DNA of 64,000 nucleotides from a virus: positions 1 through 64,000 of the IMG/VR virus record IMGVR_UViG_3300047564_003843; one strand, written 5' to 3'. The position numbers and the translations under genes are program-made. The notes under the pieces were generated by a model. It saw only the letters and a program-made list of their open reading frames with translations. It made no database searches and had not been told where the DNA came from. Shown here in pieces: positions 49,370 to 63,464 of the stretch. Position 1 is the first letter of the stretch. Each line of letters starts with the position of its first letter.

Positions 49370-49879
49370 TTGGAGCGCACCAAAGAATTCATAGAACCAG
49401 ACCTTGTGAACTTATCGCAGGGTCTGGTTTCTGTATCTAATGCAACAACTTTTAATTCAACAGCTCTTGAAGAGATTTACAATAGAAATTTAGAACTTAT
49501 AGAAAAATATCGAATTCCTCTTAAAGAAGGTTCGATTCCAAAAGTTTTTAATATTTTTTGGCAAAACCACATCTGCGGTCAAATTATTATACAAATCGAC
49601 AAAATAACAAACAGCGGACTTATTAGTTACTGGGTTGACTCTCAACTCTCTAATAGAAACATAGCAACTAACGCGGTTATTCTTATAAAACAATACTCTT
49701 TTGATATTTTTAATTTAGATTATCTAGAGGCTTATGTTCAACCAGATAATGTAAAAAGCCACCGTGTATTAGAAAAATCTGGTTTTATTAAGACAGAAGC
49801 AGTTTTTACTTATATAAACCCCGTAGGTACAGGCATCGAGCACTGTGTATACAGAATAGAGCGCGACTACCTCTCTTAA
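49370..49879 (+). CDS. GNAT-family acetyltransferase
   Basis: 169 residues. GLISYWVDSQLSNRNIATNAVI is the acetyl-CoA-binding region (NRNIAT replaces the usual RGxGxG/A-like loop, with Gln/Arg-x-x-Gly altered), and LEAYVQPDNVKSHRVLEKSG is the conserved C-terminal part of RimJ/RimL-like enzymes. The apparent start TTG immediately follows the previous stop. Substrate unknown; acetylation of a protein or small molecule is the family role. Confidence 0.75.
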   Translation: MERTKEFIEPDLVNLSQGLVSVSNATTFNSTALEEIYNRNLELIEKYRIPLKEGSIPKVFNIFWQNHICGQIIIQIDKITNSGLISYWVDSQLSNRNIATNAVILIKQYSFDIFNLDYLEAYVQPDNVKSHRVLEKSGFIKTEAVFTYINPVGTGIEHCVYRIERDYLS

Positions 49880-50846: not shown

Positions 50847-51551
50847 ATGGGAAAAAAGATAATCAAGTTTGGAAGAAGTCACGACTACCCTGAACTTCCT
50901 GTACCCGTTAGAAATGTAGTTCCAGATTGGTATAAAAAATCTCCTAGATTTATAGATGGCAAAGAAGCTTCTATTATTTATACCGAACGAGGTGCTCGTT
51001 CTAATATTGGTATGAAGATGTGCGTTCCATTTTTTGACGCGATGATTTGTGGATATACAGCAACTCTTTGGCAAGATGTCCAAGTAACAAGACGACCAGA
51101 TGGTTTAAAACTAGATTGGCTTGTAGACCCTACCCCAATCAATGACAGAAGTAGTCATGGTATGGAACTTCTTCCTATTCCTGCAGGACACTATCCTCAG
51201 CAATACGCTTGGGTAACACCTTTCTCAATTCAAACTCCTCCAGGCTATAGTGTTCTTATAACTCATCCGTTTAATCGTTATGACCTCCCGTTTACAACTT
51301 TGAACGGTATTCACGATTCTGACTCAATAATGCCTCACGGGCACTTACCTTTTTATATGAAAGATAATTTTGAAGGAGTAATTCCAGCAGGAACTCCTAT
51401 TTATCAAATCTTCCCATTTAAACGCGATGCTTGGGAATCAGAGTTTGACGAGACCCTTGGTAAAAAAGCAGAGAAGAGAATGTGGGACGGTATGACCAAA
51501 ATGTTTGGACATTACCGAAATAACATATGGAATAAGAAAGAGTACAACTGA
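50847..51551 (+). CDS. Conserved WYKK protein (DUF6065-like), copy 1
   Basis: 234 residues. VVPDWYKKSPRFIDG, CVPFFDAMICGY, VTPFSIQTPPGYSVLI, FEGVIPAGTPIYQIFPFKR and a C-terminal WNKKEYN align along the full length with the leftward gene at 62739, so the genome carries two diverged copies. I associate this family, from phages and bacteria, with DUF6065, unverified. Its stop overlaps the halogenase start by one base, which couples the two. In T4-like phages such genes lie near halogenase-type genes; role unknown. Leaderless-type start (TAGGCT, six bases, ATG). Confidence 0.8.
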   Translation: MGKKIIKFGRSHDYPELPVPVRNVVPDWYKKSPRFIDGKEASIIYTERGARSNIGMKMCVPFFDAMICGYTATLWQDVQVTRRPDGLKLDWLVDPTPINDRSSHGMELLPIPAGHYPQQYAWVTPFSIQTPPGYSVLITHPFNRYDLPFTTLNGIHDSDSIMPHGHLPFYMKDNFEGVIPAGTPIYQIFPFKRDAWESEFDETLGKKAEKRMWDGMTKMFGHYRNNIWNKKEYN

Positions 51552-53119
51552 TGGAGCTTAGAGACATAAAGAATGTGACCATCATTGGTGGTGGTACAGC
51601 AGGGTGGCTCGTTGCTCTTTATGCAAAGACAGTTCTTCCAACAAAAAGAATAACCTTAATCGAGTCAGACAAAATCGGTATTCTTGGTGCTGGTGAGGGA
51701 GCAACTCCTCAACTAATTAGCTTTTTAGACGTACTACAAATACCTGTTTCTAAATTAATTCAAGAAGCAGATGTAACACTTAAGCAGGGTATTAAGTTTA
51801 CAAATTGGCACAAAGGTGGAGATTCTGATTGGTTCTATCACCCATTTGTTGGTTTTGGTAATGTTGCTGCCACAGAGGTTTCTTTAGAAAGATATGTCTC
51901 TGGTACACCAGCTCTTTTTACACAGGTAGCAAAACTACAAGAACCTCAAGAAGAGTGGTGTTTTATGACCCGCTTATGTGAGCAGAACAAGGTTGCCTTC
52001 AAACCACATAGAGAAGAATTTTATCCAGCATCAGATCCAATTTTTCAATACGAAAAGATGGGAGCATTTTCTCTACATTTTGATGCTAGAAAACTTGCTG
52101 CGTTTTTATCAGAAACTGGTCAAGAACGCGGTATTCAAAGAATTGAAGGTTTAGTAGAAAGCTATAAAACAGATGATGAAGGTTATGTCAATGAACTTCT
52201 TTTAGATAATGGAAAGTCAGTAGATACTGATTTTGTTTTTGACTGCACTGGTTTTAAGTCTTTCTTTGCTAAAGAGTTTGAAACTAGTTGGGTGTCTGCT
52301 AAAGACCATTTAACTGTCAATGCTGCTATGCCTTTCTTCCTTGATATAGAAAGTCCTATCCCTCCATACACAGAAGCAGTAGCAATGAAGTATGGGTGGA
52401 TGTGGAAGATTCCTCTTCAATCTCGTTATGGTTGCGGTTATGTTTTTAATAGCAACATGATTGATGATGCTCAAGCAAGAGAAGAGATTATTGATTATCT
52501 TGGCTATGAACCTGAATGGCCTAGGGAAAAATCATTTAGTTGGGAACCAGGTTATTTATCAGAACCTTGGAAAAAGAATGTATTTACGATTGGTCTTTCT
52601 GCAGGTTTTGTTGAACCGCTAGAAGCTACTTCTATATGGTCAACTGTTATTGATTGGTCTAGTGCATTACTTGGCAATGTAGAACTTATGTATACAAAAG
52701 ACCAAAGTATTATTGATGATTTCAATAACTTCTGGCGTAAGAATCAAGAAGAAGTTATCGGCTTTATTTATGCTCATTACATGAGTGGAAGAACCGATAC
52801 AGAGTTTTGGGAGCACTACACCTACGAAAATGCACCTGCTTCATCAAAACGTTATTTAGATATAAATAATAAAAGATCCTTTATCCTTAATGATTTTATA
52901 GACCACAATTTCTTTGAAATTGATTCATGGTCTTATATTCTTCTCGGGCTTAAAAATAAAAAGTTTATAGAACACCACAAGCTATTCGAGTTCTATAATT
53001 TTACAAGAACTTTTATGGAACAAAGATATACAAGCTTTAAAAAACTTATTCAATATGTAGCAGACAATGAAGCAATCACCCACGACGAGTTTTTGGAGAA
53101 GATGAATGAAAAACAATAA
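51551..53119 (+). CDS. Flavin-dependent tryptophan halogenase-like
   Basis: 522 residues, the usual length. GGGTAGW (13-19) binds FAD; GEGATP (48-53); TLKQGIKF with the candidate catalytic Lys 78, which in PrnA-type enzymes guides HOCl; GWMWKIP (282-288), the family signature; and GFVEPLEATS with Glu 358 in the position of the PrnA active-site Glu. All core residues are present, so it should be active with a flavin reductase. Substrate may be tryptophan, an indole or a peptide; flanking genes suggest a small modification cluster (50847-54418). Known as rare phage cargo. Confidence 0.88.
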   Translation: MELRDIKNVTIIGGGTAGWLVALYAKTVLPTKRITLIESDKIGILGAGEGATPQLISFLDVLQIPVSKLIQEADVTLKQGIKFTNWHKGGDSDWFYHPFVGFGNVAATEVSLERYVSGTPALFTQVAKLQEPQEEWCFMTRLCEQNKVAFKPHREEFYPASDPIFQYEKMGAFSLHFDARKLAAFLSETGQERGIQRIEGLVESYKTDDEGYVNELLLDNGKSVDTDFVFDCTGFKSFFAKEFETSWVSAKDHLTVNAAMPFFLDIESPIPPYTEAVAMKYGWMWKIPLQSRYGCGYVFNSNMIDDAQAREEIIDYLGYEPEWPREKSFSWEPGYLSEPWKKNVFTIGLSAGFVEPLEATSIWSTVIDWSSALLGNVELMYTKDQSIIDDFNNFWRKNQEEVIGFIYAHYMSGRTDTEFWEHYTYENAPASSKRYLDINNKRSFILNDFIDHNFFEIDSWSYILLGLKNKKFIEHHKLFEFYNFTRTFMEQRYTSFKKLIQYVADNEAITHDEFLEKMNEKQ

Positions 53120-54665: not shown

Positions 54666-54870
54666 TACTACTCAAATCATAAAGCTAGACAACACACCGC
54701 TTGAATATATAACTCCCCGCGAACGTTGCGACGCTTGCGGTCATCAAGCATATTATCGTGTTACTTTTGAAGCAGGACATCTATTCTTTTGCAGACATCA
54801 CTACATCAAACAAGAAGATGCTTTCTTTGAGAAAGCTTTAGATATCGTTGACGAGTCTGAATTACTTTGA
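54658..54870 (+). CDS. Small actinobacterial-type zinc protein
   Basis: 70 residues, overlapping the DUF3039-like gene by eight bases. ERCDACGHQAYYRVTFEAGH with FFCRHHYIKQE gives Cys-x2-Cys and Cys-x2-His-His, like the small actinobacterial proteins I know as DUF7455. Probably zinc-binding; function unknown. Confidence 0.8.
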   Translation: MSDTTQIIKLDNTPLEYITPRERCDACGHQAYYRVTFEAGHLFFCRHHYIKQEDAFFEKALDIVDESELL

Positions 54871-55248
54871 AGGCTTTGTAAAGTCTTCGATAGTAAATCC
54901 ATCAGTTCTTTCAAGAACCACATAGGTGTAGTCAAAAAGACTGAGATTGCTTTCAAGATTATCTAGAACTTGTTTTACAGGAAGCTCTCCACATGTATAT
55001 AAATCAAACTGGACTTTTGAAGGTTTATCTTCATCCCAGATATGCATAGCAATATGAGAAGTCTCAATCATAACTACTGCTGTTAAACCACGGTTTCCTT
55101 CAGCAGTTACATATGAGGCATAAGGTCCTTGAATGACCTTCATATCAATGGATTCAACAAGCTCACGCATCCAATTGATAACAAGTGTTTCGTCAGTCGG
55201 TGGATTAAGTGTCCACCCGTTTACTAGTAAATGGTTGTGTAAAGGCAT
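54862..55248 (-). CDS. speD: S-adenosylmethionine decarboxylase-like (SpeD)
   Basis: 128 residues, the bacterial SpeD length. ETSHIAMHIWDE holds Ser 64, the cleavage and pyruvoyl residue, and His 69; FDLYTCGE holds Cys 86. Spacing agrees with Thermotoga-type enzymes (Ser 63, His 68, Cys 83). It should self-cleave and decarboxylate AdoMet, the first step to spermidine, whose polyamines could neutralise packaged DNA. The Glu-Ser pair is Thr-Ser here. Leaderless start (TAGGCT, six bases, ATG); stop overlaps the convergent gene by nine bases. Confidence 0.85.
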   Translation of the reverse strand: MPLHNHLLVNGWTLNPPTDETLVINWMRELVESIDMKVIQGPYASYVTAEGNRGLTAVVMIETSHIAMHIWDEDKPSKVQFDLYTCGELPVKQVLDNLESNLSLFDYTYVVLERTDGFTIEDFTKPSK

Positions 55249-55627: not shown

Positions 55628-56866
55628 ATGACTTCAACCCCTATAACCAATGTTTCAAAGCCAAATCGCGACCAGATTAATGGCTTCCGTACAGACATGT
55701 TTGGGCGTACTAAGGTCTCTCAAAACTACACATATTTTGATGCTTCGCATCGTTTTCAAGAGAATCCAGACTATAGCGACATCTTTATTGGCACTGCCAG
55801 TAAGTCTTACTCTCAGAATGAGAGCTGTGTAAACCTCACTATTGGAACTGCTTCAGGGGATAAGGTCCACCGCGAGACCAAAAAGGTAATGCTCTATCAG
55901 CCAGGTAAATCTCTTCAACTAATGCAGACATTTACAATGGAACCTGCAAAAACAAACCTACGCCAACGAGTTGGATATTACTCACGGCAGAATGGTTTTT
56001 ACTTAGAACAAACTGGTACAACTATAAATCTTGTCAAGCGTTCATATACCTCTGGTCAGTTAGTGGAAACTAGAGTTCCTCAGTCAGAGTGGAACATGGA
56101 TAAGCTCGATGGCTCTGGACCATCTGATGTGGTTCTAGACCTCAGTAAGTCTCAAATTCTGTGGACTGAAGTTGAATGGCTAGGCGTTGGTTCTGTAAGG
56201 ATGGGTTTTGCTATTGATGGTTACTTTGTCGCTGCTCACCAGTTCAATCATGCTAACCACGACACAAGCACCTATATAACTACAGCGGCTTTACCATTTG
56301 CCTTCGAAATTGAAAACATTGGGGCAACTTCATATGCAAGTACTATGAAACAAATATGTTGTTCCGCGGGTATCAATGGTGGGTATGAAAAAATTACAGA
56401 GTCATGGTCTGCATATAGAAGCACTCCAGTAAACATCACAACATCTTTTACGCATCTAGTATCGATTCGACTTTCAAATGGAAGAACAGATGCAATTGTT
56501 ATCCCCTCTGCTCTTGATATTATGGCAACTCAGGCTGGAAACTATGAGTGGGTTCTTCTTAGAAATGCAACTATTACTGGTGGTACATGGGTAACCCACG
56601 CTTCCCCTCAAAACGCTGATTACAACGTAACCGCCACAGGGCTTTCTGATATATCTGAAGCAATCATTGTTCGTCAAGGGTATTTTCAATCAACTAATCA
56701 ATCAAGCGGTTCTATTGAAATTGGTGGAATCAATCGTCTAGACCTACAGCTTGGCAGAACAAATGCTGACACCCCTGTCAGTGACACATTTACTCTTGCT
56801 CTAAGAACCCTCTCTGGCTCAGGTCAGGCTGTTGGTTCTATTGCTTGGTTTGACCTGCTCAGCTAA
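55628..56866 (+). CDS. Virion structural protein candidate (beta-rich)
   Basis: 412 residues, beta-rich. MTSTPITNVSKPNRDQINGF, FRTDMFGRTKVSQNYTYFDA and TASKSYSQNESCVNLTIG begin a domain seen in large aquatic phage structural proteins; then a lectin-like sandwich (VEWLGVGSVRMGFAIDG) and a C-terminal sandwich. It could be a decoration, fibre or adhesion protein. Leaderless-type start (TACAAT, seven bases, ATG). Family call is from memory of similar sequences. Confidence 0.7.
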   Translation: MTSTPITNVSKPNRDQINGFRTDMFGRTKVSQNYTYFDASHRFQENPDYSDIFIGTASKSYSQNESCVNLTIGTASGDKVHRETKKVMLYQPGKSLQLMQTFTMEPAKTNLRQRVGYYSRQNGFYLEQTGTTINLVKRSYTSGQLVETRVPQSEWNMDKLDGSGPSDVVLDLSKSQILWTEVEWLGVGSVRMGFAIDGYFVAAHQFNHANHDTSTYITTAALPFAFEIENIGATSYASTMKQICCSAGINGGYEKITESWSAYRSTPVNITTSFTHLVSIRLSNGRTDAIVIPSALDIMATQAGNYEWVLLRNATITGGTWVTHASPQNADYNVTATGLSDISEAIIVRQGYFQSTNQSSGSIEIGGINRLDLQLGRTNADTPVSDTFTLALRTLSGSGQAVGSIAWFDLLS

Positions 56867-56903: not shown

Positions 56904-57983
56904 ATGGAGAGTTGGCAAAAACTAGATAGGTCATCTACCCCTTTGACCTCAACAGTTGAGATGGACAGCCTTACACAAGAGCTTGTTCGTCCCTTCGATT
57001 ACGAAACAAACGGTCTTTCAACCTTTCACCCGTTTGTTCTTCCAAAACTTCCTAGTGAGTTTAATCTTGGCGTAATTGTTGGTGCCTCTGGGACAGGTAA
57101 GTCAACTCTCCTCCAATCTTTTGGAAATCCAGTAATTCCAACTTGGGACTACAACAAATCAATTGCATCTCACTTTGATAATCCAGTAGATGCAAGTGAG
57201 CGCTTATCTGCAGCAGGACTTATGTCTGTTCCTGAGTGGGTAAAGCCTTATCAGGTTTTATCAAATGGACAAAAGTTTCGTGCTGACTTAGCAATATCTT
57301 TGCAAAGTGGTGCTGTCATTGATGAATACACATCTGTTGTAGATCGTAATGTTGCAAAAGCTGCATCAACATCAATGTCTAAATACATTCGTCGTAACAA
57401 CATAAAAGGAGTTGTGCTGGCAACTGTTCACCGCGACATCCTTGAGTTCCTTGAGCCAGATTGGGTTATTGATACTGACCGTGGCGAATGGACCTCAGGA
57501 AGGTATCTTCAACGACCTGAACTGGTTCTCGACATATATCCTGCCCACAACAGCGTTTGGGGATACTTCGCTTCGCACCACTATCTCTCCGAAAAGCTCA
57601 ATAAGGCCTCACACAGCTACTTGGCTATCTGGGAACAACAGTTAGTTGGTTATGTAGCAGCAATGACTTATCCGTCAGGCACTGTGCAAAATGCTTGGCG
57701 TGAGCATCGTTTAGTAGTTCATCCTGATTATCAAGGACTTGGGTTTGGCCCAAGAATTTCAGAAGCAGTTGCAGAGTATTATATAAATCAAGGAAAAAGA
57801 TATTTTTCAAAGACTTCTCATCCACGCTTAGGCGAATATAGAGACACTTCTAATTTGTGGAAACCTACATCAAAAAACCACATGAAACGTTTAGATGGAC
57901 ATATTGAACGTACAAATATGAGATGGCAATTAAATCCAAATCGATGGTCTTATTCTCACGAATATATAGGAGAAAATAAGTAA
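56904..57983 (+). CDS. ABC-type ATPase fused to GNAT-like transferase
   Basis: 359 residues. The N-terminal half is an ABC ATPase: Walker A GASGTGKST (60-68), signature-like LSNGQ (119-123), Walker B AVIDE (137-141), switch His 176. The C-terminal half (about 219-345) is GNAT-like: HRLVVHPDYQGLGFGPRISE with the QGLGFG acyl-CoA loop. No membrane segment, so it is not a transporter. Such fusions occur in actinobacterial genomes and phages; a Mom-like DNA or nucleotide modification role is conceivable but unproved. Leaderless-type start (TAGCCT, six bases, ATG). Confidence 0.85.
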   Translation: MESWQKLDRSSTPLTSTVEMDSLTQELVRPFDYETNGLSTFHPFVLPKLPSEFNLGVIVGASGTGKSTLLQSFGNPVIPTWDYNKSIASHFDNPVDASERLSAAGLMSVPEWVKPYQVLSNGQKFRADLAISLQSGAVIDEYTSVVDRNVAKAASTSMSKYIRRNNIKGVVLATVHRDILEFLEPDWVIDTDRGEWTSGRYLQRPELVLDIYPAHNSVWGYFASHHYLSEKLNKASHSYLAIWEQQLVGYVAAMTYPSGTVQNAWREHRLVVHPDYQGLGFGPRISEAVAEYYINQGKRYFSKTSHPRLGEYRDTSNLWKPTSKNHMKRLDGHIERTNMRWQLNPNRWSYSHEYIGENK

Positions 57984-58668: not shown

Positions 58669-58911
58669 ATGACTATGTCTTACGCCAGATTTTTTGCAGA
58701 TGATGTTTATGTATTTGCATCACCTAGAGGTCTTACATGTCAAATGTGTAGTTTTGGTGACATGTTGGAAACAAGCTTTTTAGCTGAATCAACCCAAGAA
58801 ATGGTTGACCACCTCAAAGCCCATCAGAAAAAAGGAGACAAGATGCCTTCAACAATTTTTGATGAGCTTTGGGCAGATGACTCCGAAAACTATCCTTCTA
58901 AAAAGAATTAA
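58669..58911 (+). CDS. Small hypothetical protein with Cys pair
   Basis: 80 residues. SPRGLTCQMCSFG and MVDHLKAHQKKGDKMP resemble a zinc-finger C2H2-like module (CxxC ... HLxxH). The promoter is clear: TTGAAG (58635-58640), 16 bases, TATACT (58657-58662), six bases, ATG 58669, i.e. leaderless. Confidence 0.75.
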   Translation: MTMSYARFFADDVYVFASPRGLTCQMCSFGDMLETSFLAESTQEMVDHLKAHQKKGDKMPSTIFDELWADDSENYPSKKN

Positions 58912-59318
58912 AAGTTTTTAATATCTTTTAACTTCTCAAACAGTTCCATAATTTTAGGTGGAGTGTTTGTAAGCTTTATATTATTATTGCTGTGATTTTC
59001 TTCAAACCGCGGGAACATAATTGTTGTATGTCCTCCATCGTTTGAATATGCTCTTGGATTTCTTTTATTTCTCCAAAGCTCGTCTGTAATCTGTTCCCAC
59101 TCATTCGGGTGGTCAGTTAGCTGCCTTAAGTTCTCGTGACGAAATAGCTTTTCTAAAGCTTCTGGCATAAAGTAAAGAGTATTTTCGGTGTGAGGATAAT
59201 CTGTAAAAAAATCTACTAACTTTATATAAAAAGCTTTTAGTTCAGGGTCATCTTCAGATAAATCAAGCTCATAATTAGCATGACGCATCCACTCTTCTTT
59301 GCTGTATTCAAATGCCAT
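58908..59318 (-). CDS. Hypothetical protein
   Basis: 136 residues, helical and acidic, aromatic (LYFMPEALEKLFRHENLRQL). Tail-to-tail with the gene at 58669 (four-base overlap), and overlapped 11 bases at its start by the pyruvyltransferase-like gene. Perhaps its partner. No family recognised. Confidence 0.7.
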   Translation of the reverse strand: MAFEYSKEEWMRHANYELDLSEDDPELKAFYIKLVDFFTDYPHTENTLYFMPEALEKLFRHENLRQLTDHPNEWEQITDELWRNKRNPRAYSNDGGHTTIMFPRFEENHSNNNIKLTNTPPKIMELFEKLKDIKNF

Positions 59319-60039
59319 TTATATTCCTATTCCTAACATTATCGTTATACCATTTTCGTCCCTCGGCTACGTTTGAGACAAAAACTGGTTCCCCTAAGTC
59401 TACCGAAGCAAACCAGTCATACCACTTAGGCAAGCAGTCAATGTATGGTCCGTCTAATAAAGCAAATGGTATCCCATACGCATGCGCTGTAATTGCAACG
59501 TGCATAGCCCCCGCTAAAACAAAGCGTGCTCCTGATATTTTGTGAACCATAGCAATAGTCTCATCAATAGTTTCTACAACAGCGCTTATTACAGCATCAG
59601 CACCATATTCGTGGTGCGTAAATTTATTATAATCAGATGGATCTTTTATGTGGCGCACAACTATTGCCATAGCGTTTGGAGCAGCTTTAGTTAAAATATT
59701 TGGCAGTATGTAAGCAGGATCTTTACTTACTTCTACATCAACTCCATGTTTTTCTAACTCCATTTGAGTGTATGGACCGCGAGCGCCGATAAATTCACAT
59801 GCACCTACAAGTTGAGGATCTAAACCTTCTCCACGCCACCCACAAGAAATAAATATTGGTTTGTAACCTTGTCTTAAAGTTTCATCTATTATTTCATTAC
59901 ATATAACACTTCCAAGAGGAAAGTACATATTTTCGGTGTCGTTGTACCAAGCGTTATACACAGATGGCGGAGTAATTAACTCAGCCAGAGCATCGCCATA
60001 GTTCCTGACGACCCCATCCATCTTCCACTCATAAATCAC
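59308..60039 (-). CDS. Polysaccharide pyruvyltransferase-like protein
   Basis: 243 residues. NYGDALAELITPPSVYN, FISCGWRGEG, FIGARGPYTQMELEKHGV, VSKDPAYILPN and MHVAITAHAYGIPFALLDG match the polysaccharide pyruvyl transferase family (GT-B fold), which adds ketal-linked pyruvate to surface sugars using PEP. Shorter than cellular homologues (about 300-380), so some parts may be reduced. It suggests surface or virion glycan modification. AGAGGTG precedes the ATG. Confidence 0.8.
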   Translation of the reverse strand: MIYEWKMDGVVRNYGDALAELITPPSVYNAWYNDTENMYFPLGSVICNEIIDETLRQGYKPIFISCGWRGEGLDPQLVGACEFIGARGPYTQMELEKHGVDVEVSKDPAYILPNILTKAAPNAMAIVVRHIKDPSDYNKFTHHEYGADAVISAVVETIDETIAMVHKISGARFVLAGAMHVAITAHAYGIPFALLDGPYIDCLPKWYDWFASVDLGEPVFVSNVAEGRKWYNDNVRNRNINGI

Positions 60040-60141
60040 CTCTCAACCTTACCTTCCCCCTCCCCTCTTTATTTCTCAACGCGCCGCTGCTTTTAACGGA
60101 AAGAGAGCCCGGAAAATTGAAATTTGTATTATGATAAACAC
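60040..60141 (+). promoter_or_regulatory. Leaderless -10 before the paralog pair
   Basis: TATGAT at 60130-60135, then six bases (AAACAC) and ATG 60142. No recognisable TTGACA at -35. The short interval also holds the divergent start of the pyruvyltransferase-like gene. Confidence 0.6.
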
Positions 60142-60885
60142 ATGGCACGCAAAGACGAAGTTACGGTTTATTGGTCTCCTTACTACCCTGTCAGGGCAGA
60201 GGAGCGCTATGACTGGAACATGATGTATCAGGACCCAAAATCCTTAACAGATTCTTTAAAGCCTGAAAGAGTAGTTGATGGTGACCCCAACAACAGTATC
60301 TTTTTTTGCCCTGCTTATAAAAATATGTTTTCTAATACATTTGTCTTTTCAAATCTTGTAGATAGTAAATATGAATTTAATCCAGAGACTAAACAGTTTG
60401 TTGCTGTTCAAGACCATCAATATGTATTATCTCGTTCGATGGAACCTTTTATGCAGGATAGAAGGGTAATTTGGATTCCTCTTGGTTGGACTTTCTTTTG
60501 CGAAGAGGATGTAGAAATGGAGCTTATGCCACCAATTCTTCACGACACTATTCATAGACACTATGGAAGTATCACCCCAGGACGATTTAACATCTCTAAG
60601 TGGTACAGACCTTGCATAACAGAGTTTATTCTTTGGAAAGGTCAAAACAGATTCCATCTTGCTGAAGAACCAGTAATGTACGCAAGATTTCATACAGACA
60701 AGAAAGTTGTCCTTAAACGTTTTGAAATGACAGCTGACCTACAAAAATTAGCTGAAAGCATTGCTGACACAAAAAACAACCTTGGCAGGTTCAAGTCCCT
60801 AGCTTACAGATACGATACTTTTGTTAAATCTCGAACCAAAGAGATTGTTCTTCGTAAAATAAAAGAGGCTGTTATAGATGAGTAA
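60142..60885 (+). CDS. Aquatic-phage conserved protein, paralog 1
   Basis: 247 residues from ATG 60142. YWSPYYPVRAEERYDWNMMY, IFFCPAYKNMFSNTFVFSNL, ITPGRFNISKWYRPCITEFI, FHTDKKVVLKRF and RTKEIVLRKIKEAVI align along the whole length with the next gene, so the two are tandem duplicates. No catalytic motif. I recall similar proteins in T4-like aquatic phages. Followed by a cytidylyltransferase-like gene, which may point to surface chemistry. Confidence 0.75.
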   Translation: MARKDEVTVYWSPYYPVRAEERYDWNMMYQDPKSLTDSLKPERVVDGDPNNSIFFCPAYKNMFSNTFVFSNLVDSKYEFNPETKQFVAVQDHQYVLSRSMEPFMQDRRVIWIPLGWTFFCEEDVEMELMPPILHDTIHRHYGSITPGRFNISKWYRPCITEFILWKGQNRFHLAEEPVMYARFHTDKKVVLKRFEMTADLQKLAESIADTKNNLGRFKSLAYRYDTFVKSRTKEIVLRKIKEAVIDE

Positions 60886-61618
60886 AGACGAGATTGTTGT
60901 TTATTGGGGACCTTGTTACGAAGTTGGTCCAGACCACATTATTGATTGGAACATGTTCTATGCCGACCCTACAGAGCTTCTTCCTGATTTAAAAAAGATG
61001 AAAGATAAGACAGCAGGAAATCAAAGCATACTTTACTGCCCTGCTTTCACCGAAAACTATAAAAATACTTTTGTATTCAGCAGCGTTGTAGACAGCAGGT
61101 TTTCATACAACCATCAACAAAATTGCTGGGAAATACCTAATAAGTATCAAATACACCCTGCTACAACCATGCGAACCAGTTACATGGAAAATCGCAAACC
61201 TTTAGTTCTTTCTATGATTTGGCTTTTTGTTTCTGAAGAGCCATTAGAGATGGAGATTATTTCTCCATACCTTCATCAAACAGAGTCTTCCAAGTACGGG
61301 GTTATTGCCACTGGAAGGTTTGATATTGGACGTTGGTATAGACCTATCCATGCCGACTATCTGTTGTGGAGCGGTCTTGACAACTTTGCAATTAAAGAAG
61401 GAGACCCCTTTTTCTATGTAAGATTTAATACTGATAAAAAGGTTGTTTTAAAAAGATACGTTAATACCCCTGAAATCTACAAGCAGACTGTTTCTAATGT
61501 TGAAACTAAATTTCTTTTTGGTAAGACACCCCCTCTTGCAAAGCTATACAACTACTTTTCAAAAACTAGAACCAAAGACATAATGCTTAAAAAGATAAAA
61601 GATGCGGTGATTGAGTAA
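60878..61618 (+). CDS. Aquatic-phage conserved protein, paralog 2
   Basis: 246 residues, ATG overlapping paralog 1 by eight bases. YWGPCYEVGPDHIIDWNMFY, LYCPAFTENYKNTFVFSSVV, ATGRFDIGRWYRPIHADYLL, FNTDKKVVLKRY and RTKDIMLKKIKDAVIE mirror paralog 1. Its stop overlaps the next start by one base. The two may form a heterodimer; inference. Confidence 0.75.
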   Translation: MSKDEIVVYWGPCYEVGPDHIIDWNMFYADPTELLPDLKKMKDKTAGNQSILYCPAFTENYKNTFVFSSVVDSRFSYNHQQNCWEIPNKYQIHPATTMRTSYMENRKPLVLSMIWLFVSEEPLEMEIISPYLHQTESSKYGVIATGRFDIGRWYRPIHADYLLWSGLDNFAIKEGDPFFYVRFNTDKKVVLKRYVNTPEIYKQTVSNVETKFLFGKTPPLAKLYNYFSKTRTKDIMLKKIKDAVIE

Positions 61619-62070
61619 TGGAATCTTCGGCACTGGTTGAGCTTGAGCGTATGTTTAAGCAGAACAAGGTTGGCTTTACAGCCTCTTGTTTTGACCTTCT
61701 ACACGCAGGACACATTCTTATGCTTGAAGAAGCAAAATCAGTTTGTGACCACCTTATAGTGGCACTTCAAGCAGACCCAAGCATTGACAGACCTCAGAAA
61801 AGAAAACCCATTCAATCTTTAATTGAGCGTCAAATCCAACTTAAAGCAGTTAAGTATGTAGATGAAATTGTTGTTTATGAGACAGAAGATGACCTACTCA
61901 ATCTACTCAAGACCTTGCCTATAGATGTTCGAATTATTGGTGAAGACTACATAGGTAAAGATTTCACAGGTAGGGACTACTGCATAACTCACAACATAGA
62001 TATTTACTACAATAGTCGCAGACACACCTACTCCTCTACAGAGTTGATAGAGCGCATCCGAAAGGTATAA
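61618..62070 (+). CDS. Cytidylyltransferase-like (TagD type) enzyme
   Basis: 150 residues. VGFTASCFDLLHAGHILMLE contains the HxGH nucleotide site (29-32), and YSSTELIERI near the end replaces the RTEGISTS-type motif. This is the nucleotidyltransferase fold of glycerol-3-phosphate and ADP-heptose-type cytidylyltransferases, which activate a phosphate compound with CTP. It fits the pyruvyltransferase-like and glycosyltransferase-like genes as sugar or polyol activation. The exact substrate cannot be read. Confidence 0.85.
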   Translation: MESSALVELERMFKQNKVGFTASCFDLLHAGHILMLEEAKSVCDHLIVALQADPSIDRPQKRKPIQSLIERQIQLKAVKYVDEIVVYETEDDLLNLLKTLPIDVRIIGEDYIGKDFTGRDYCITHNIDIYYNSRRHTYSSTELIERIRKV

Positions 62071-62352: not shown

Positions 62353-62742
62353 ATGTTGGCTAAGACAAATTCAGGTAGTGACAAACAAGTAATACAACCA
62401 AAACAGTGGACATTAGTTTATTTTGGTGAAAAGAAACAAACATCTTTTATATCTCATGGTGCAGGTAAACTTCTTTTTAATGTCATCCTTCGTGTTGAAT
62501 ATCCCGAGATAGGGTGCCCAAGAACTCTTCGAGGACGATTTGTCAGATGGCCTAATACATCAAAAGCAGATGAAACGGGTCATAACGATGTTAATCCAAT
62601 TGCTGGACTAACAAGACATCACCACTGGGACCACTTCTTAGAGAACAGAGCTAAAATGCCAGTAGGTTTTATAGTCTGGCATGATGGAGAAAGCCCTATT
62701 GTTCTTGATGGAAGACAGATTAAAAGCTTTTTAAGTAACTAG
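62353..62742 (+). CDS. Conserved hypothetical protein
   Basis: 129 residues from ATG 62353 with TAGGAGCCACA upstream. TRHHHWDHFLENRAKMPVGF and IVWHDGESP form a His-rich module. Mostly beta. Ends convergent with the gene at 62739 (four-base overlap). Function unknown. Confidence 0.75.
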   Translation: MLAKTNSGSDKQVIQPKQWTLVYFGEKKQTSFISHGAGKLLFNVILRVEYPEIGCPRTLRGRFVRWPNTSKADETGHNDVNPIAGLTRHHHWDHFLENRAKMPVGFIVWHDGESPIVLDGRQIKSFLSN

Positions 62743-63464
62743 TTATATTCTTTTCTAGTCCAAAACTTATCTTTGTATGCATTGTAAAAACTCATTTTTA
62801 GTTTTCTTATGCTTCTTTGAATAGTTATCATGTCTGATCTCTCTCCATACTTCATTTCATAAGATTCTCTTTTAAATGGAATAACTTGAGCCATTGGATA
62901 CCCTGCAGGGATTATCCCCTCCCACTCGGGGTCAATTAAAAATGGAAAGTTAATTGGATGAGCGTAAGTATCAGTGTCAACGATAGCTGGGATACATTGA
63001 AGTATTTGGTCTTTTGCATCTCTATTCATTGGAGGAACAAATAAACATGAGTAACCTTTTGGAGTTATTACTGTCCAAGGTGAGTGAAATTTTGGAATTG
63101 CATTGTCAGGATGTTTTTGCACATGAGGATGAGTAGACATTTGTAATGGTGGATGAAACCCTAAAACATCGTAATCAGGCCATTGAAAAAGTTGCTGACC
63201 ATCTTTTTTTGTCACCTTCACATCTGTGGTTAAAGGGATTATGTAACCTGCTGTCATAGCATCCAGCATTGGCATGCACTTTTTTCCTGTCGCGGTGCCC
63301 GTGTTCAACCCGATGTCACTCCAGTAGACAGTCCCCTGCTCTCCATCTATGTATGAAGGCAGTTTTTTATACCAGTCTGGAACAGCTTTTTTGGCGGGGT
63401 AAGGTCGAGTCTCCTCTGGGAGGTCTCCCATAAGGTCCACAAAAGTAATTGGTACTGAAGTCAT
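62739..63464 (-). CDS. Conserved WYKK protein (DUF6065-like), copy 2
   Basis: 241 residues. VPDWYKKLPSYIDG, CMPMLDAMTAGY, WTVITPKGYSCLF, WEGIIPAGYPMAQVIPFKR and WTRKEYN match the gene at 50847 along the full length, about 11 kb away and on the other strand. Unlike copy 1 it has no halogenase neighbour. Leaderless-type start (TAGTTT, seven bases, ATG). Confidence 0.8.
   Translation of the reverse strand: MTSVPITFVDLMGDLPEETRPYPAKKAVPDWYKKLPSYIDGEQGTVYWSDIGLNTGTATGKKCMPMLDAMTAGYIIPLTTDVKVTKKDGQQLFQWPDYDVLGFHPPLQMSTHPHVQKHPDNAIPKFHSPWTVITPKGYSCLFVPPMNRDAKDQILQCIPAIVDTDTYAHPINFPFLIDPEWEGIIPAGYPMAQVIPFKRESYEMKYGERSDMITIQRSIRKLKMSFYNAYKDKFWTRKEYN

Follow-up and report, generated by a model that had tools for sequence, protein, structure and literature searches.

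Evaluating a 64,000-nucleotide stretch of DNA from an uncultured phage (hereafter the window; positions 1 to 64,000 of IMG/VR record IMGVR_UViG_3300047564_003843, 160.7 kb in full), we found a gene whose product is probably an ATP-gated DNA-base acyltransferase of the ABC-GNAT type that protects phage DNA. The observations behind this reading are the domain make-up of the protein, the conservation of both its active sites, purifying selection on the gene, a ParB-like partner gene in relatives, a correspondence between the partner's tail and the enzyme that follows it, and the exchange of ABC-GNAT with Mom in a common genomic slot.

Domain architecture and conserved motifs

The gene lies at 56904..57983 on the + strand, with an ATG start, an upstream GGAG and 359 codons. 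Its soluble, 359-residue product matched the PHROG 11143 profile at E 3.3e-105, with protein residues 17-358 of 359 falling on profile positions 8-352 of 357, and is a full-length member of this family with both catalytic motif sets intact; the profile also had matches in all 14 control genomes, which we attribute to unspecific ABC and GNAT similarity, and the control counts were left unused. Comparison with eight relatives gave dN/dS values of 0.07-0.16 for seven of them (in the eighth comparison, synonymous sites were saturated), and this strong purifying selection shows that the ORF is not a chance frame.

The sequence-only reading had described an ABC ATPase joined to an acyltransferase, which was confirmed by Pfam for the GNAT half, by an ABC profile of relatives, by the domains of an AlphaFold2 model and by conserved motifs. 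In the two-domain model (pLDDT 88.5, pTM 0.82), the ABC ATPase domain at residues 7-200 (56922..57503, +) matched ABC NBDs, best MJ0796 (1l2t, Z 13.0; VIA-align), and the GNAT domain at residues 207-357 (57522..57974, +) matched GNATs with Z up to 14.4 (VIA-align). The GNAT half passed Pfam thresholds at residues 218-300 (PF00583, 35.6 bits against a cut-off of 20.7; PF13508 and PF13673 also above cut-off). The ABC half by itself scored 18.7 bits with PF00005, under the cut-off of 25; a profile built from 39 relatives matched ABC transporter NBDs at E 1e-9, and a fused homologue passed PF00005 at 36.5 bits. Searched as a single sequence, the protein had no significant match among solved structures, and a match to the mad3 defence system (E 3e-7), which spans the signature-to-Walker B region only, was set aside as generic.

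Across 107 non-redundant relatives, the catalytic positions of both domains were kept almost without exception. In the ABC half (all motifs on the + strand), Walker A is GASGTGKS (residues 60-67, 57081..57104), with its invariant G/S/G/K positions retained in 106-107 of 107, and the signature LSNGQ (residues 119-123, 57258..57272) follows the form L-S-x-G-[QE] in 107/107; the Walker B Asp-Glu at 140-141 and the Asp of the D-loop S144..D147 (together 57321..57344), as well as switch His176 (57429..57431), were each found in 107/107. In the GNAT half (also +), motif A, the acyl-CoA pyrophosphate loop RLVVHPDYQGLGFG (residues 269-282, 57708..57749), conforms to R-x-V-x-P-[DE]-x-Q-G-x-G-x-G in 103-107 of the 107, the HHYL motif (residues 225-228, 57576..57587) keeps H-Y-L in 105-107, and a TSHP motif (residues 304-307, 57813..57824) is also conserved. 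With Walker A, signature, Walker B, D-loop and switch His all present, the protein is a member of the ABC ATPase superfamily, and with the motif A acyl-CoA loop and the fold present it is equally a member of the GNAT superfamily.

Two absences make the protein unlike a transporter subunit and argue against an ABC transporter identity. The whole protein has no membrane segment (highest 19-residue hydropathy 1.02), as the sequence-only reading had stated, and no recognisable Q-loop was seen, for the relatives' alignment lacks a conserved Gln in the stretch from Walker A to the signature. The description of the ATPase as complete therefore holds for Walker A/B, signature and switch His but not for the Q-loop. 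The Walker A-to-signature stretch is only about 50 residues, and such a short stretch without a Q-loop would suit a non-transporter.

Distribution and earlier prediction of the family

Phage proteins combining GNAT and ABC ATPase were predicted to form an acyl-modification system for DNA bases (Iyer, Burroughs and Aravind; PMC7824862), in a restatement of a 2013 prediction by Iyer, Zhang, Burroughs and Aravind that names phage pT24 and QAX98348.1. The latter is the annotated AsFcp_2 gene, which the window protein matches at 46% over 95% of its length, and pT24 is matched at 41%; the architecture is the same, whereas the window protein differs from these named members in that its phage is uncultured and has actinobacterial traits and that its clade lacks ParB. 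Mom-type DNA modification, which the sequence-only reading had raised as one option, is thus a sensible idea that was already in print (PMC7824862). In pT24, the ABC-GNAT (L071:5893-7065) is split in the annotation into two ORFs separated by a gap, reflecting either a sequencing error or a natural split. A literature search found no experimentally tested function for the family and no paper on COG2401, which we take to be 'ABC-type ATPase fused to a predicted acetyltransferase', and the window gene adds a member to a known, apparently untested, family.

The family is widespread. By tblastn, relatives were found in 81 phage records; the best from isolated phages were those of Aeromonas AsFcp/PX29 (46%), and near relatives at 60-99% identity occur in more than 25 uncultured phage contigs. 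Genome contigs held 410 relatives, of which we kept 80, mostly from planctomycete MAGs. Since those kept have as neighbours genes for portal, prohead and both the small and the large terminase, many if not most of them are prophages.

The architecture also varies within the family. In P335 and Javan141, ABC and GNAT are separate adjacent ORFs, and Nickievirus-like phages and an Acinetobacter phage-plasmid carry ParB and ABC genes followed by a separate GNAT (PHROG 886). The Nickievirus-like ABC is homologous to that of the window (E 1e-24 to 1e-33) and has ParB upstream, and its PHROG 886 GNAT is homologous to the window GNAT half (hhalign E 2.7e-8) with the HY pair present, but the genes are separate and the GNAT belongs to a longer, distinct family. 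One subclade has a third component, a formyltransferase-fold gene directly downstream of ABC-GNAT. The usual formyltransferase catalytic motif is N-x-H, and in these Formyl_trans_N genes (PHROG 9240; L066:9002-9619, L056:2248-2955, L069:2312-2962 and L061-L063) HPSLLP is kept and the catalytic Asn is replaced.

A ParB-like partner shared with Mom and DNA methyltransferases

Under a strict distance rule, 94 of 156 ABC-GNAT loci have a ParB-like gene immediately upstream, and in many of them the two genes overlap by 3-21 bp; a few further ParB genes stand slightly farther off, and contig ends truncate some of the loci. Searching 46 records with PF02195 gave a ParB_N match in 18, with the ParB gene adjacent in nearly all 18, and one locus (L119) encodes a natural ParB-ABC-GNAT fusion of 611 aa. 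The same ParB subfamily forms the N-terminus of phage DNA methyltransferases (PHROG 498; PADLOC MTase_II). Among 80 loci retrieved through ParB alone, the ParB was joined in 26 to a protein in which a simple pattern recognised a methyltransferase motif, and in 12 it was followed by ABC-GNAT; among Mom loci, ParB was directly upstream in 65 of 80.

The Arthrobacter phages EastWest and Wyborn are collinear at the locus, with 67-75% DNA identity in both flanks and protein identities of 67% for the gene before ParB, 60% for the ParB N-domain, 71% for the DNA-binding gene after and 54% for the sliding clamp. In the same slot behind the common ParB N-domain, EastWest carries ABC-GNAT and Wyborn carries Mom (gp71; PF25680, E 7e-59, 199 bits). 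ParB N-domains of the Mom-linked and ABC-GNAT-linked sets showed a median identity of 57% between sets. The ends of the ParB proteins followed the enzyme: CxxC (a zinc knuckle) was present in 51/51 Mom-linked and 0/81 ABC-GNAT-linked sequences, whose relatedness forbids a literal reading of the p-value, and a 'beta-alpha-beta' tail profile, so named from the sequence pattern and not from a model, recovered 40/40 held-out ABC-GNAT partners and 0/51 Mom partners, the Mom sample being biased to one Mom subfamily. We infer that the ParB tail is a docking element for the enzyme.

This tail can also stand free. In Mu-like phages of Pseudomonas and Porphyromonas it is an ORF of 42-49 aa upstream of ABC-GNAT, and ABC-GNAT lies after the tail genes or at the right end of the genome, i.e., at or near the com-mom position. 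In Mu, the small zinc-finger Com is encoded upstream of Mom at the right end of the genome, and the small Com gene precedes mom as the small tail ORF precedes ABC-GNAT.

Mom of phage Mu (PF25680, PDB 8bv8) likewise belongs to the GNAT superfamily, with an HY pair at a similar place that recurs in the separate GNAT of split operons, and in actinophages it has the ParB partner and genomic slot in common with ABC-GNAT. It has, however, neither an ABC domain nor the QxGxG loop, and its partner's tail is a zinc knuckle rather than beta-alpha-beta. By sequence, the window protein falls outside the Mom family, with no PF25680 match in Pfam at E up to 1. Aligned by hhalign, the window-family GNAT and Mom gave a non-significant match near the HY motif (E 0.02, probability 2.3%), and 8bv8 was not among the best 50 VIA-align matches listed, which is uninformative either way. 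The proposal of Mom-type modification is thus favoured by context (allelic exchange, a ParB partner common with Mom and methyltransferases, a com-mom-like location), but not by sequence membership of the Mom family. The exchange with Mom and the tail/enzyme correspondence may be new, and we claim no priority over the 2013 paper of Iyer et al.

The window's clade and genome neighbourhood

A single ParB-less group (24 rows, 100/92) in a maximum-likelihood tree of 107 sequences unites the window clade with the T4-like phages and with some members of marine and archaeal-MAG origin. No PF02195 match was found anywhere in the window's 160.7-kb record, and the whole clade also lacks ParB. As the clade is separate and ParB-less, the context evidence from relatives transfers to the window protein only by homology.

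Directly upstream of the fusion gene, at a distance of 37 bp, is a virion structural protein gene (PHROG 1645, E 6e-110; 55628..56866, +), which hints at late expression, and the next ORF starts 26 bp after the fusion gene. A homologue of the Tad3-type inhibitor of type I Thoeris (PF25185, E 2e-15) lies at 58908..59318 (-). Of 24 clade loci, 12 have such a Tad3-like gene near ABC-GNAT, and in 6 it runs on the same strand and overlaps the 3' end of ABC-GNAT; an anti-defence setting would be consistent with this. The record also encodes a Dam-type adenine methyltransferase (67135-67665).

A flavin-dependent tryptophan-halogenase homologue (51551-53119, +; PF04820, E 3e-99) is unusual cargo that is conserved in the clade, and a second halogenase is probable by eye at record 108065-109567. 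A polyamine gene, S-adenosylmethionine decarboxylase, is at 54862-55248 (-; PF02675, E 1e-14), and a second, stand-alone GNAT at 49370-49879 (+; PF13302, 41.9 bits) is unlike the ABC-fused one. A polysaccharide pyruvyl transferase (59308-60039, -; PF04230) and a cytidylyltransferase-like gene (61618-62070, +; PF01467) have possible surface-sugar or nucleotide-sugar functions. Two pairs of paralogous proteins are encoded at 60124-60885 with 60878-61618 and at 50847-51551 with 62739-63464; the two members scanned, 60124-60885 and 50847-51551, had no Pfam match. Farther along the record, a WhiB-like protein identified by eye (109560-110105, -; L081) suggests an actinobacterial host. The last ~24 kb of the record (137-160 kb; L082, L083) is a diverged copy, at 66-84% identity, of its first ~24 kb (window 1-24059); related contigs are 134-136 kb, and assembly may have joined two related phages in this record.

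Proposed mechanism and alternatives

The ParB partner and allelic exchange shared with Mom, and the sharing of ParB with DNA methyltransferases, point to DNA as the target. A GNAT's substrate cannot be read from its fold, and protein N-terminal acetyltransferases, RimI and Naa50 among them, are found in the top structural hits of this domain. In an alternative that these hits would suit but that we consider unlikely, the substrate is a host protein, be it RNA polymerase, a nucleoid protein or a defence protein; the GNAT would acetylate it, and the ABC domain would serve as a regulator or as a clamp for targeting, in the manner of phiKMV Rac. There are known phage GNATs that act on RNA polymerase (PMC7824862), and both the ParB-less state of the window clade and the Tad3-type anti-defence gene close by in half of it would agree with such a role. 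The partner sharing and allelic exchange argue instead for DNA. To our knowledge, no phage protein acetyltransferase has a dedicated ABC domain, which also counts against it.

Less likely again is an accessory role in DNA packaging or partition, in which ParB and the ABC ATPase would handle DNA near the terminase and acyl transfer would regulate the complex rather than modify bases. ParB and ABC ATPases are typical of DNA segregation, and in many prophages the module sits just upstream of terminase and portal; yet GNAT motif A is kept in nearly all relatives, Mom occupies the same slot in Wyborn, and in the window's record a long distance separates the gene from the probable terminase, a terminase-like ORF recognised by eye (record 74013-75434).

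In TmcA/NAT10, a GNAT is combined with a helicase ATPase, and base acetylation needs ATP hydrolysis (PMC4234376); the coupling of ATP hydrolysis to acyl transfer, called unusual in the sequence-only reading, thus has a precedent in nucleobase acetylation. The two systems are alike in pairing a P-loop ATPase with a GNAT; TmcA/NAT10 differs in its RecD-like helicase, RNA substrate and extra tRNA-binding domain, and identity with it was rejected since the window ATPase is of the ABC type and PF13718 scored just 12.5 bits against a cut-off of 24.6. A TmcA-like acetyltransferase acting on bases of tRNA or rRNA during infection is very improbable, for although the ATPase-plus-GNAT logic is the same, motif A has a weak sequence match to NAT10 (E 0.1) and Foldseek matched TmcA 2zpa (E 3.9e-5), that structural match is local only (TM 0.29, rmsd 13.8) and was not counted as homology evidence, the window protein has no tRNA-binding domain, and the family's partners are DNA-modification genes.

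For the DNA-base acyltransferase, we infer DNA as the substrate, the acyl donor, the dimer, the role of ATP and the protective purpose. ABC domains generally act as ATP-sandwich dimers, and our model matches the ATP-dimer structure MJ0796. Two copies would come together by their ABC domains, hold ATP between them and close on DNA; binding and hydrolysis of ATP would distort the helix or shift the enzyme, bringing a base into the GNAT active site. ATP-driven closure would thus offer the base to the GNAT, as cytidine is presented by the helicase of TmcA to the GNAT of that enzyme (PMC4234376), and the GNAT domain would move an acyl group from acyl-CoA onto an exocyclic amine. Like momylated Mu DNA, phage DNA modified in this way would withstand host nucleases. 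For most family members, it would be the ParB-like partner that engages DNA, its C-terminal tail being where the enzyme plugs in, and the window clade would work without ParB or through an unrecognised partner.

A broader proposal, which we offer tentatively, is that phages share one ParB-type DNA clamp whose C-terminal tails can be exchanged to plug in Mom, ABC-GNAT or methyltransferases, and that ABC-GNAT is the first ABC ATPase to drive DNA-base acylation, giving an undescribed acylated nucleobase. If DNA bases are acylated by these enzymes, phage DNA would gain a new chemistry, an ABC ATPase would be seen to act in base modification, and many genes misnamed as transporters would be accounted for.
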